From positions 32,239,151 through 32,303,150 of the forward strand of contig CAIIXF020000003.1 in NCBI GenBank assembly GCA_903813345.2: a stretch of 64,000 nucleotides of DNA, read 5' to 3'. The stretch comes from Owenia fusiformis. Its lineage: Eukaryota > Annelida > Polychaeta > Sabellida > Oweniidae. This document shows positions 30,401 to 44,500 of the stretch, in pieces (the first letter of the stretch is position 1; every line of letters starts with the position of its first letter). Below the pieces are notes generated by a model. The model was not told the origin of the DNA. It worked only from the letters and a program-made list of their open reading frames with translations, and did no database searches. The position numbers and the translations under genes were made by a program.

Positions 30401-32268
30401 AACAGAGATGAGAGCATGAAAACTATTCAGAAAATCCTTCATGCAGAGTTTTATTTGTATACTTACTTGAGCACCAAGTTCTGTGAGTGTTTCAATGAGG
30501 ACTGCAGTCTGCACAGTCATATGTAGACACCCAGCAATACGTGCACCCTTCAATGGCTTAGAAGGACCATATGTTCTTCTCATATGCATCAGTCCAGGCA
30601 TCTCATTCTCTGAAAGAGCGATTTCCTTGCGACCCCATTCTGCCAAGCTGATGTCAGCTAAAATTAAACAATGTTGATGTCAGTTTAGATAATATTATGC
30701 CAGTGTATGCCGATGTCAGCTGAAATTAAACAATGTTGATGTCAGTTGAGATAATATTATGCCAGTGTATGCCGATGTCAGCTGAAATTAAACTATGTTG
30801 ATGTCAGTTGAGATAATATTATGCCAGTGTATGCCGATGTCAGCTGAAATTAAACAATGTTGATGTCAGTTGAAATAATATACTATGCTGATGTCAGCTG
30901 AAACACAACCACCCAATGATGTTATATGAGTTAATAGATTAAAAATTATGTTAATTTTAACTGTAACAAATATGTGGTAATAAACATAGATGTGAATTAA
31001 TTGACTACAAGACCTCTTGTGCTAATTCAATTGATTATCTAGGTCAGTGCTCGATTCAAATTCATTGCATTCATTGATAATAAATTTATGATTTAAAGTT
31101 CATTACTTCCAAATATAAACCAGTAAATTCTAGTTCTGAAACTTCACTAATGTCTCGAGACAAGTATGCCTTTATCAAATTCATTATCAAGAGTTAAAGG
31201 TCCAAGTCACTTCTATCTAAAGTTGGTGTGTGTGTTACGAGACAATGTATCAGTGGCTGATAACAAGTCGTCAAATTGGTAGGTAAATCAAACGGATATA
31301 CGTTTGAATAGGTCTTCACACCTTGACTGGCGAGATGCAGTTATGATAACTATTTAACTGACCAATGTGTTTAACATACTAAACTGGAAAAACGGCAACT
31401 CAACTGAGTACCAAATCCCAACAAACACTATAATATACTTGTATATGAATCTGTATTTGTCACAATAAATAATAACATTTGAAGAAAAATATCAGAAAAC
31501 AAAACCATAAGAGATCGCCCCTACACTTCCTTCAATTTGAGAATAATATAGCCATACTTCGACTAGATCAATCCTATCTCTCTAATTATGGACAATTCTA
31601 GCATGGATCTGAATAAACAAACGATTATCAGCTAACTGAAGAGAGGCAGTATTGTCAATGTAGGTTATTGCCAAAAATGGTTCTGCCGACATGCCGAGGT
31701 GCTGGCCTACATGGATTACATCGCTTCCAGCGAGGCTCTCAGCTGAGGTGCAAATAGTAAATGTCAATGATTGGCATTCAGGTTGTTGAAAGTGAACTAT
31801 TATAAGTGCGCCGCATAACAAATGTCTATGATCTGAGTGGTCAATTCAACTTTTAGCTGCATTGTAGATAGATACAGTAGAATTGTATTTGGTTGTAAGC
31901 TTACTAATCGCAATTGTGTTTTCACTGTCCACAATCGAATATCCAGCCAAATCTCCGATTATCATTTTAAATACACAATAAAATGCGAGGTCATCCTTAT
32001 TCCACACCTGGTGATGCCTTACTGACTGGATTTGAACTCCTGGGTCTTTGACAAACAAAGCTTGATTTCAGACATTGAAAGTGAAAATGAATTTTGAAAC
32101 AGTGTTTTTTATTTTAAAATTTGGATTATTTGCAGAAATAATTGACTCGATTGGCATTAGTGAAATATAAATTAGCATGTCCGCAATAAATAAATCGAGT
32201 TTAAAAATACTGACAATATCAAATAAAGGTTATTTCTTACCAACTTTGTAGGGAACTTTTTCAGTCAT
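27449..32268 (-). CDS. AHCY: Adenosylhomocysteinase, complete nine-exon gene
   Basis: Hydrolyses S-adenosylhomocysteine to adenosine and homocysteine in the cytosol, relieving inhibition of methyltransferases; NAD-dependent. Exons (minus strand, 5' to 3'): 32241-32268, 30467-30657, 30168-30296, 29951-30050, 29501-29613, 29050-29257, 28492-28694, 27943-28134, 27449-27580. They total 1296 nt, or 431 residues plus stop, close to the animal norm of 432, with no frame break. Visible motifs: MTEKVPYKV start, [17 protein letters not shown] signature (about 78-93), LDDGGDL, the catalytic region [13 protein letters not shown] (K187, D191 by position), C196, the NAD loop GYGDVGKG (221-228), and a KPEHYRY C-terminus. 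All introns are GT-AG except the last (27581-27942), which starts GC. Intron 1 carries a tandem array copying the exon 2 acceptor; intron 6 is mostly dispersed repeat A. A TATATAAA lies at 32334-32341. Confidence 0.97.
27941..27943 (-). other. GC 5' splice site of AHCY intron 8
   Basis: Exon 8 ends CCAAAGAAG and the intron starts GCAAGT. Joining here to TTGGATGAAG (acceptor CCAG at 27581-27584) restores the conserved PKK-LDE junction. No GT at the junction gives the right frame. AAG|GCAAGT matches the usual context of GC-AG introns. Confidence 0.9.
28741..29045 (+). mobile_element. Dispersed repeat A, copy 2, filling AHCY intron 6
   Basis: Homologous to 9913-10268 (shared ends TACCCTGCGTGC and AAGCTCTCTTTTAAGAAG, shared TATA-like and CCAAT-like blocks). 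It occupies about 305 of the 355 intron bases and is antisense to the gene. Its right end lies within about 4-5 bases of the exon 6 donor (GT at 29048-29049). What remains of the intron is mainly the 3' end with polypyrimidine tract and TTTTCAG. Confidence 0.75.
30650..30905 (-). repeat. 62-bp tandem array copying the AHCY exon 2 acceptor
   Basis: Units start at 30650, 30712, 30774 and 30836, an exact 62-bp period; the last is partial, and a further GATGTCAGCTGA lies near 30890. The first unit overlaps the start of exon 2. Read on the gene strand, every unit contains TTTAATTT(C/T)AG|CTGACATC, that is, the 3' splice site plus the first eight exon bases. The authentic site has TTTTAG, the upstream copies TTTCAG. 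Inclusion of one extra unit would bring an in-frame TAA. Confidence 0.9.
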
Positions 32269-32555
32269 GGTGCTGTACGTCGATTAGATTCACGTGTCAA
32301 ATCTGAAAGAGAATGAAACTAGGTCACCTTTAGTTTATATAGTAAGCTAATTTGCATAATTTTCCAAATATGGGCAGGTGTGTTTCTGTTAGGATTCATG
32401 ATTGGTGTAGATATTACTTCTGTCTAGATCTGAACCAATTACATTTGATGTTACAACTCCACTTATTAAAGTCATGTGATCGCTGCCATATTGAAAGAGG
32501 AGGAAAAGTAGAAATATATATAATATTTTGTCAATAAATCTATAATTACGACACA
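32269..32555. promoter_or_regulatory. Bidirectional promoter between AHCY and V-ATPase d
   Basis: 287 bp separate the two divergent ATGs. On the AHCY side TATATAAA (minus strand, 32334-32341) lies about 70 bp upstream of the start codon. CACGTG, an E-box, is at 32291-32296. No clear TATA box was seen for the plus-strand gene. Shared use is inferred from the distance only. Confidence 0.6.
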
Positions 32556-41500: not shown

Positions 41501-44500
41501 GTTACATTCAGTTTTTAGCCAGTTTGGCAAATTTCAGTTAGATTTGAACTTTTTTATATGCAACAAGTGTTGTGTTGTCTGAAATATTTTGCTGACTGGT
41601 AACACATAAACAGTAAGTATTGTGATGTCAGAGTGTTGTATGGTCAGGGTTTGCAGGTCAATTTGAGAAAGCATGGTGGAAGAAGGGGTTTTTGAGAGAA
41701 GGAAACACCCTACTCCATATGGACAATGCACCTGCCCACAGATCTCAAAATGTTCAGAAAACAATATCCCTTGACCTCAAAATTGAGCCCTTGACCAATG
41801 CACCATATTGTCCAGATCTGCCCACATTTGACTTATTTATTTCTATATTACTTATTTCTATAGAGAAAGGACGCATGTTTATTGACATTGATGGAATAAA
41901 ACAACCCGTGCAACTGCATCTTGCTACCATGTCAGAGAATGGATTCAGCCTTGTCTCACAATCATGAGTTAAGAGGATGAGGAATTGTGTACATGTAGCA
42001 CTTGATGGAACCTATGTAGAGGGCCCTGTAGAATGAATGTGGCATGAATACCACATAGTGATGATAAAATATTCAAAATCAAATATGGCATAACAAAATG
42101 GGGTAATTCATGACCACCATCGTTTGTTTTGTTCAGCCTACATTCAACTGCGTTAAATGTTAAACAAGCTTAAATAGCTTCAGAATGTTTAACGTCATGT
42201 CGGTCCCGAGGTACCTATACCTCCTTCACGGAAATAAAGATATTTCAAAATATATTATATGTTTTGTTTTCAAATCTTCAGAGTTGATAAATAATTGAAT
42301 GATGTATCACTGGTAAGAAAATAGAAGGGATTGGTTTATAAAAAGCATCTGTGTAAAAAAGCGTCCATTACTTATTGATCACCCCTCGTATGTGTAAATC
42401 ATGGCAGCCTTAATTGTAGCTATTAAGACATCAAAATATGAACTTTACAAATCCTACCATATGGGGTGTTAGAATTAAGGAGGAATAATTAGATGCTGAT
42501 GTTCCTAGAATTGTACATTATTATTTCAGGAATACAAGTCATTGTTTGAGGGGGCTGGTACCAATCCTAGAATTGTACATTATTATTTCAGGAATACAAG
42601 TCATTGTTTGAGGGGGCTGGTACCAATCCTAGAATTGTACATTATTATTTCAGGAATACAAGTCATTGTTTGAGGAGGCTGGTACCAATCCTAGAATTGT
42701 ACATTATTATTTCAGGAATACAAGTCATTGTTTGAGGGGGCTGGTACCAATCCTAGAATTGTACATTATTATTTCAGGAATACAAGTCATTGTTTGAGGG
42801 GGCTGGTACCAATCCTAGAATTGTACATTATTATTTCAGGAATACAAGTCATTGTTTGAGGGGGCTGGTACCAATCCTAGAATTGTACATTATTATTTCA
42901 GGAATACAAGTCATTGTTTGAGGGGGCTGGTACCAATCCTAGAATTGTACATTATTATTTCAGGAATACAAGTCATTGTTTGAGGGGGCTGGTACCAATC
43001 CTAGAATTGTACATTATTATTTCAGGAATACAAGTCATTATTTGAGGGGGCTGGTACCAATCCTAGAATTGTACATTATTATTTCAGGAATACAAGTCAT
43101 TGTTTGAGGGGGCTGGTACCAATCCTAGAATTGTACATTGATATTTCAGGAATACAAGTCATTGTTTGAGGGGGCTGGTACCAATCCTAGAATTGTACAT
43201 TATTATTTCAGGAATACAAGTCATTGTTTGAGGGGGCTGGTACCAATCCTAGAATTGTACATTATTATTTCAGGAATACAAGTCATTGTTTGAGGGGGCT
43301 GGTACCAATCCTGGAGAGAAAACTTTGGAAGACAAATTCTTTGAACATGAGGTAAGATTAAAGTCATTTAAAGATGGCGACTAGACCAAAACTCTATTAA
43401 CCCTTTCGTGACGTCAAAATTACAGAATTGCTGTCCCCACATGACGTCAAAAGATGGCGGCTTTTTAACAAAAAGTGTTATCTTCCTTTAAAATGTAATA
43501 TCTCAAAAAGAATTTCAACTTTTATTATGACACTTTGACATACTGTTCAAAATTAAATTCCTTCCTAACAAAAAAGTTTTCACATCAAAAGCATAAATGG
43601 ATCTGTAGAATCTGATCATTTGCAAATACCATTCCTAATAGCAGCCTATGCCCCCACCTCCTTTATTATCCCATCGAACGAAGTTCGGAGGGATATAGGG
43701 AACGCCTCCGTCCGTCCGTACGTACGTCCGTCCGTACGTCCGTCCGTCCGTCCGTCCGGGCAATAACTCAAATACCGTTGGCCCGATTTTGTTCATATTT
43801 TGTACACATATACCCTATGGGGGTAGAAGTTCTGCTCGAAAGCCGATTTTCAAAATGGCCGCTCATTTCAAAATTGCGGCCATTTTAGTGCCGATTTTAC
43901 AGTTATTTAGGTGCAATATGTAAAACTGTAATAGCAATATGTTTTAAATGTAAAAAAATTATAAAGGACTTTAATAATGCTACAAATGTAGATATTAAAG
44001 AAGCGCATGGCAGCCATCTTGAAAAATGGCGGCCTTTACTCGTCATTTTACGATTTTTGCTGTAACTCAAAAAATAGTGGAGTGATTTTGTTCATATTTG
44101 GTATGTGAATACTATAAGCATTGCACACTGTCTAAAGACACTTTTGATAGAAGGTGGCCATTTTGAAAAATGGCCGCCATTTTAACGTATTTTACTATTA
44201 CTTGAAAAGTAGTGGAGCGATTTTGTTCATATTTGGTATGTGAATACTATAAGCATGGCACTGTCCTATGACATTTTTGTGAGAAGTTGGCCATATTGAA
44301 AAAAATTTTGAAAAATGGCCCCCATTTTAACGTATTTTACTATAACTCGAAAAGTAGTGGAGCGATTTTGTTCATATTTGGTATGTGAATACTATAAGCA
44401 TGGCACACTGTCCTATGACACTTTTGGTAGAAGGTGGCCATTTTGAAAAAAAATTTGAAAAATGGCCACCATTTTAAAGTATTTTACTAGAACTCGAAAA

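Follow-up and report, generated by a model that had tools for sequence, protein, structure and literature searches.

Tandem arrays across exon edges, at acceptors and donors, in genes of Owenia fusiformis

In amphioxus, minisatellites whose tandem unit lies across the edge of an exon have been named 'mirages'. They have been published for Adh3 and for the globins BflGb6 and BflGb9 (PMC3087553) and are also reported for PGBD5, in a paper that cites troponin C (PMC3902484); both papers state that regular splicing is undisturbed by them. According to PMC2812944, internal tandem repeats of human segmental-duplication genes likewise involve minisatellite expansion over exon-intron borders; they change splicing or make new introns, vary between recent paralogues, and half of them lie within coding exons. 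Work on intron gain by tandem duplication likewise describes the copying of splice signals (related intron-evolution work: PMC2891723, PMC3488318). Here we analyse a 64,000-nucleotide stretch of contig CAIIXF020000003.1 of the Owenia fusiformis assembly (498 Mb in 525 contigs), hereafter the window, in which two divergent genes, AHCY and the gene for V-ATPase subunit d, carry tandem arrays across exon edges. The arrays are exon-edge minisatellites, the structure named in amphioxus: segments spanning a splice site are present in 2 to ~55 tandem copies, of which the copy touching the exon yields the normal protein. Genes sampled elsewhere in the assembly show that the feature is real and common in this genome, at donors and acceptors alike.

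As with the mirages, the tandem unit spans the exon-intron boundary, and both 5′ and 3′ boundaries are affected (seven acceptors and seven donors in the samples; three acceptors and one donor in the window). Unit lengths of 28–154 bp in the samples and 31–103 bp in the window fall within the range of 10 to ~160 bp given in the mirage literature, which also describes length instability between haplotypes and somatic cells; our material is one assembly. The differences from amphioxus lie in the annelid-like genome, in arrays as large as 54 copies of a 31-bp unit or 5.2 kb of a 105-bp unit, and in a measured rate. Unlike the human segmental-duplication repeats, the arrays described here are intronic and leave the predicted protein unchanged. 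In the work on intron gain, one exon-internal duplication gives rise to a new intron, whereas the present arrays lengthen an intron that already exists and leave it in place. The structure is thus of a known kind in what is apparently a new lineage, a statement that covers the open-licence literature and does not show absence from print. In the human gene 6-16 (IFI6), Turri et al. reportedly found in 1995 that a minisatellite at an exon-intron border creates multiple donor sites, in a single gene and with a short unit.

The two genes of the window were identified by spliced translation and alignment to solved structures. AHCY (adenosylhomocysteinase; minus strand, nine exons, start codon at 32268) aligned over its full length to adenosylhomocysteinase chains; for V-ATPase d (plus strand, seven exons found, start codon at 32556), a spliced aligner was used in addition to spliced translation and alignment to the solved human-type proteins, by which exon starts were fixed in both genes. 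With Tandem Repeats Finder (TRF) we found three acceptor-overlapping tandem arrays, in AHCY intron 1 and in V-ATPase d introns 3 and 5 (Table 1). Each unit runs from the final part of the intron through the AG into the first bases of the exon (8 in AHCY, 22 in intron 3 and 35 in intron 5, the last with a 4-base run-on), and in all three arrays it is the exon-proximal copy that continues into the coding exon, with the reading frame of both genes intact. These results bear out the preliminary description in its three acceptor-straddling arrays among 14 introns (8+6) and in its placement of the authentic site in the exon-proximal copy, which reads through into protein. Its further remark that all arrays expand into the intron is uninformative, because an array that reaches the exon from one side while the protein stays intact can grow only intron-ward.

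The arrays differ in how well the copied sites are preserved. Every unit of the AHCY array contains TTTCAG/CTGACATC (the slash marks the intron-exon border), where CTGACATC represents the eight exonic bases in the unit. AG is intact at five of the nine CTGACATC sites, the authentic one included, and lost in four of the eight intronic copies. AG is intact in 51 of the 53 intronic edge copies of V-ATPase d intron 3. The 13 units of the intron 5 acceptor array vary at only four columns altogether, so that most decoys cannot be told from the authentic acceptor by sequence within the unit; this near-identity is compatible with a recent turnover of the array. Intron 5 has its edges copied at both ends, the donor-side duplication having been overlooked in the preliminary description. 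Breakpoint homology, examined in V-ATPase d intron 5, amounts to 4 bases there. The V-ATPase d1 chain of the solved structure has one residue, the proline in YYPEYK, that is absent here, exactly at the exon 5/6 junction of this array-bearing intron (41186, 43274).

Table 1. Edge arrays of the window with the adjoining exons and the element inside V-ATPase d intron 5
Feature	Position	Strand	Description
AHCY exon 2	30467..30657	-	first bases (start at 30657) are the authentic copy; spliced translation, full-length alignment
AHCY intron 1 acceptor-edge array	30650..30908	-	62-bp unit of two halves, 3.7 copies (TRF)
V-ATPase d intron 3 acceptor-edge array	38493..40135	+	31-bp unit, 54.6 copies (TRF), 22 exonic bases
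V-ATPase d exon 4	40114..40271	+	authentic acceptor TTTTCCAG/CCCCATAC
V-ATPase d exon 5	41013..41186	+	3′ end duplicated downstream
V-ATPase d intron 5 donor-edge duplication	41146..41332	+	period 103, 1.8 copies, two copies ~83% alike
Inverted-end element	41336..42390	.	between the two intron 5 edge duplications; 87-nt arms, 91% complementary
V-ATPase d intron 5 acceptor-edge array	42503..43312	+	62-bp unit, 13.1 copies (TRF), 12 decoy acceptors
V-ATPase d exon 6	43274..43351	+	78 nt; authentic acceptor TATTTCAG/GAATAC

To assess how common such arrays are, we surveyed two samples of genes elsewhere in the assembly. The first comprised 26 genes (~199.5 kb) from three Pfam searches (TCP-1/HSP60, proteasome and ATP synthase/V-ATPase), without four other PF00118 places (C8:24993385, C3:19347324, C7:13367988 and C12:35255176); the second comprised eight aldehyde dehydrogenase (ALDH) loci (85.5 kb), taken from 12 scored among 214 candidates, of which d, f and g have partial support and might combine sequence from adjacent paralogues. 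Exons were placed by a purpose-written spliced aligner guided by human proteins, and were kept at a guide identity of at least 35% and a length of at least 8 codons (at least 12 at the ends). An edge array was defined as a TRF array with a unit of at least 10 bp that includes a splice site together with 8 bases to each side of it. Exon 6 of ATb and exon 0 of ATc, judged to be spurious exons within repeats, were left out of the counts, while the acceptors of the first aligned exons of CCTf and PSa were taken in under a fixed rule. Edge arrays were found at 6 of 177 acceptors and 6 of 167 donors of the first sample, in 8 of its 26 genes (5/170 and 7/169 before the exon-support check), and at 1 of 58 acceptors and 1 of 54 donors of the ALDH loci, in two of the eight. 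The samples together thus gave 7/235 acceptors and 7/221 donors (Fisher P=1.0), and the claim that the feature extends beyond the two genes of the window is supported, since 10 of the 34 newly sampled genes hold a total of 14 edge arrays. At the rate found elsewhere in the genome, at least three arrays among the 14 acceptors of the window would be expected with P=0.0075, and at least four among its 28 splice sites with P=0.010; these values apply to a window chosen because it was striking.

In-register copies could be displayed for 11 of the 14 sampled arrays. An independent comparison that did not use TRF (score of at least 18) showed that 10 of 154 introns contain copies of a neighbouring exon edge, of acceptor edges in 5 cases and of donor edges in 6, with 0.02 per side expected from the introns of other genes, and 118 of 119 matches included the splice-site end of the exon. 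The same check gave 2 of 46 introns in the ALDH loci, and hence a rate of 12 in 200 introns bounded by supported exons. Eight of the 14 arrays are short (84–450 bp, 1.9–5.3 copies), the longest reaches 5.2 kb (105-bp unit), and together they are spread over six contigs. Four of the arrays belong to the CCT2-like gene, three at donors (28 bp x 16.6, 53 bp x 20.2 and 105 bp x 49.2) and one at an acceptor (96 bp x 4.2). Intron PSk_1 of the PSMB7-like gene (L027/L028) has its edges copied at both ends, as in V-ATPase d intron 5. In the PSMB5-like gene (L016, 2935-3799), what appears to be the entire final coding exon, acceptor and stop codon included, is present in about 10 tandem copies (83-bp unit), several of which could serve as the last exon. 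The suggestion that such arrays lengthen introns agrees with the longer introns that carry them (median 694 bp for 12 introns, against 412 bp for 192 others; P=0.002), a difference that is partly true by construction.

Whether splice sites carry more arrays than chance would place there depends on the null, and two nulls disagree. When random points were drawn in introns, no closer than 60 bp to an exon, arrays covered 15.6% of them pooled and 3.2% as the median by gene, against 14 of 456 splice sites (3.1%). By this comparison with shuffled positions, which the preliminary description had proposed, splice sites are without enrichment; the pooled figure is dominated by long arrays, and the null itself disregards that most placements over an exon would harm the protein. 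In the second null, one unit of each array was placed at random and only coding-neutral placements were kept. Here, 14 of 101 arrays straddle a splice site, compared with 5.83 expected (2.4-fold, P=0.001), and without the CCT2-like gene 10 do so, compared with 5.0 expected (P=0.02). The excess is confined to straddling arrays: arrays that come within 60 bp of an exon but stop short of it were looked for in the samples and showed no excess (14 against 12.3 expected), and arrays with 1–7 exonic bases numbered 3, against 1.4 expected. Of the 15 overlapping arrays in this proximity test, one (CCTe) lies at the end of the last exon, away from any splice site. Among the arrays of the first sample, an edge is straddled by 12 of the 35 whose units measure at least 25 bp (4.6 expected) and by 11 of the 24 whose units measure at least 40 bp (4.2 expected). 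Edge arrays have longer units than the others (median 86 against 22, P=0.0002), and their exonic overlap exceeds half of the unit length in 12 of 14 cases. The 2.4-fold excess over passive expectation suggests that something beyond a filter may be involved.

We then considered what the copied splice sites would do if they were used. A pattern search over 18 edge arrays (four in the window and 14 in the samples) identified 200 intronic edge copies, of which 193 retain AG or GT/GC. Of these 193 decoys, 160 fall short of the authentic site by no more than 1 bit, if at all, and site choice is thus not accounted for by local strength. Use of 190 of the 193 would lead to a premature stop, so that splicing must choose the exon-proximal copy or the errors must be discarded; in this count, the single decoy of CCTb is unreliable, as there is a stop in the base frame, and the frame with the fewest stops was taken for CCTf and for the first array of PSa. 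We infer that the exon-proximal site would be the one used, because the reading frame is intact and because the amphioxus papers report regular splicing. The acceptor array of the CCT2-like gene (8057-8456 of L012-L014, joined and turned) forms an exception, as its 96-bp unit is 32 open codons, and its upstream acceptors would add protein sequence with no stop. The splice dinucleotides of decoys vary in 1 of 16 columns compared with 3.0 expected (P=0.15), with two of the eight arrays (PSa and CCTf) off register and 12 columns sound. Among seven arrays compared, divergence between copies is lower in the exonic part in five and higher in two, the register being doubtful for two.

We consider that the arrays are best explained by ordinary tandem duplication, a filter of purifying selection, and tolerance through the choice of the exon-proximal splice site, and we give this explanation a probability of roughly 0.68. 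Tandem duplication, by slippage or end-joining repair followed by unequal exchange, would hit gene bodies broadly. Duplications internal to exons would be purged by selection, leaving as survivors those that are wholly intronic and those that lie over exactly one splice site; the latter would survive because exon definition directs splicing to the exon-proximal site, with occasional errors cleared by nonsense-mediated decay. Unequal exchange would subsequently make the array grow or shrink, giving a longer intron. The excess of edge arrays might come from a longer persistence of arrays in which one copy is anchored by coding selection or, alternatively, from a readier duplication of exonic sequence. 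Several points weigh against this explanation. With nothing but the passive filter, 5.8 edge arrays would be expected where 14 were observed; the ALDH sample by itself is not significant (2 compared with 0.9 expected, P=0.22); and one gene, the CCT2-like one, holds four of the 14 arrays, the excess being weaker without it. For an origin by repair, the breakpoint homology comes from a single intron, and the variation of decoy dinucleotides neither shows nor excludes that decoys are kept up.

The excess is what would be predicted if both exon edges were true hotspots, either seeded from exonic sequence or harbouring exon-anchored arrays that persist or re-homogenise, and if this were a main route of intron growth in the lineage. 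The 14 edge arrays against 5.8, the straddling at units of at least 25 and at least 40 bp, the longer units and the large exonic overlaps all point in this direction; the argument depends on the null chosen, however, falls to P=0.02 without the CCT2-like gene, and is opposed by the more frequent fall of random intronic points than of splice sites within arrays. We regard such hotspots as possible but doubtful. The preliminary description had instead proposed an acceptor region specially prone to tandem duplication, by transcription-linked slippage, R-loops or break repair. The three acceptor arrays against one donor duplication in the window favour this proposal, whereas donors equal acceptors in the 34 other genes, and arrays that are close without overlapping show no excess; we consider it very improbable. 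The equal donor counts in the samples reject an acceptor-only architecture, and the lack of excess in nearby, non-overlapping arrays speaks against a hotspot of mere proximity and against a general mutability of the splice-site region. Overall, the interpretation offered in the preliminary description is partly supported. If the decoys were functional, unproductive sites would adjust, by way of nonsense-mediated decay, how much housekeeping genes produce. The frequent stops and the near-authentic strength of most decoys would fit this idea, as would the housekeeping nature of the hosts, although the latter is a result of the sampling; unit, copy number and side differ from gene to gene, however, and the retention of decoy dinucleotides is not significant, which makes it improbable. 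An assembly artefact, with repeats collapsed or expanded, receives the least credence: verifying the copy number of a long array of nearly identical units (13 x 62 bp, 49 x 105 bp) would take reads, but the prevalence of short arrays and the spread over six contigs argue against it. The spread of one array family by transposition is unsupported for the acceptor units of V-ATPase d introns 3 and 5, each of which matched only its own locus in a genome search of these two; in the first sample, no exon edge matched an intron of another sampled gene at a score of at least 24.

Other features of the window were noted in passing. The start codons of AHCY and V-ATPase d are separated by 287 bp, an arrangement that suggests a shared promoter region. 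The last V-ATPase d intron holds arrays with a 182–183-bp unit at 45907-46786 and 48011-49805, by eye of like unit and in opposite orientation. A 147-bp repeat at 44162-44597 has a consensus that by eye resembles arrays located within or next to two proteasome genes (L023; L027/L028), and this repeat may belong to a dispersed element that carries its own array. Elements with inverted ends lie in introns and intergenic sequence at 33006-33402, 35637-36271, 41336-42390 and 25190-26145 (arms of 130, 42, 87 and 111 nt, respectively). An open frame of 773 aa at 56499-58820 reads like the reverse transcriptase of a non-LTR (long terminal repeat) element.

What these arrays may mean for intron evolution can be stated at two strengths. 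As a tentative and rather unlikely proposition, exon edges in this annelid-like lineage, donor and acceptor alike, would be preferred seeds of tandem amplification and a leading route of intron growth, with the exon-proximal site chosen by exon definition at both ends. If this were true and the sampled rate held, the genome would contain thousands of natural competition assays, each with up to ~50 near-identical sites distinguished chiefly by how far they lie from the exon. Because arrays of near-identical sites separate position from sequence, the choice of the spliceosome among equal sites would become addressable with ordinary RNA reads, and at stake are models in which the first AG after the branch point is taken and models of exon definition. 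The arrays would also offer a simple, transposon-free way for introns to grow, and their presence here suggests that the process known from amphioxus is not a peculiarity of cephalochordates.

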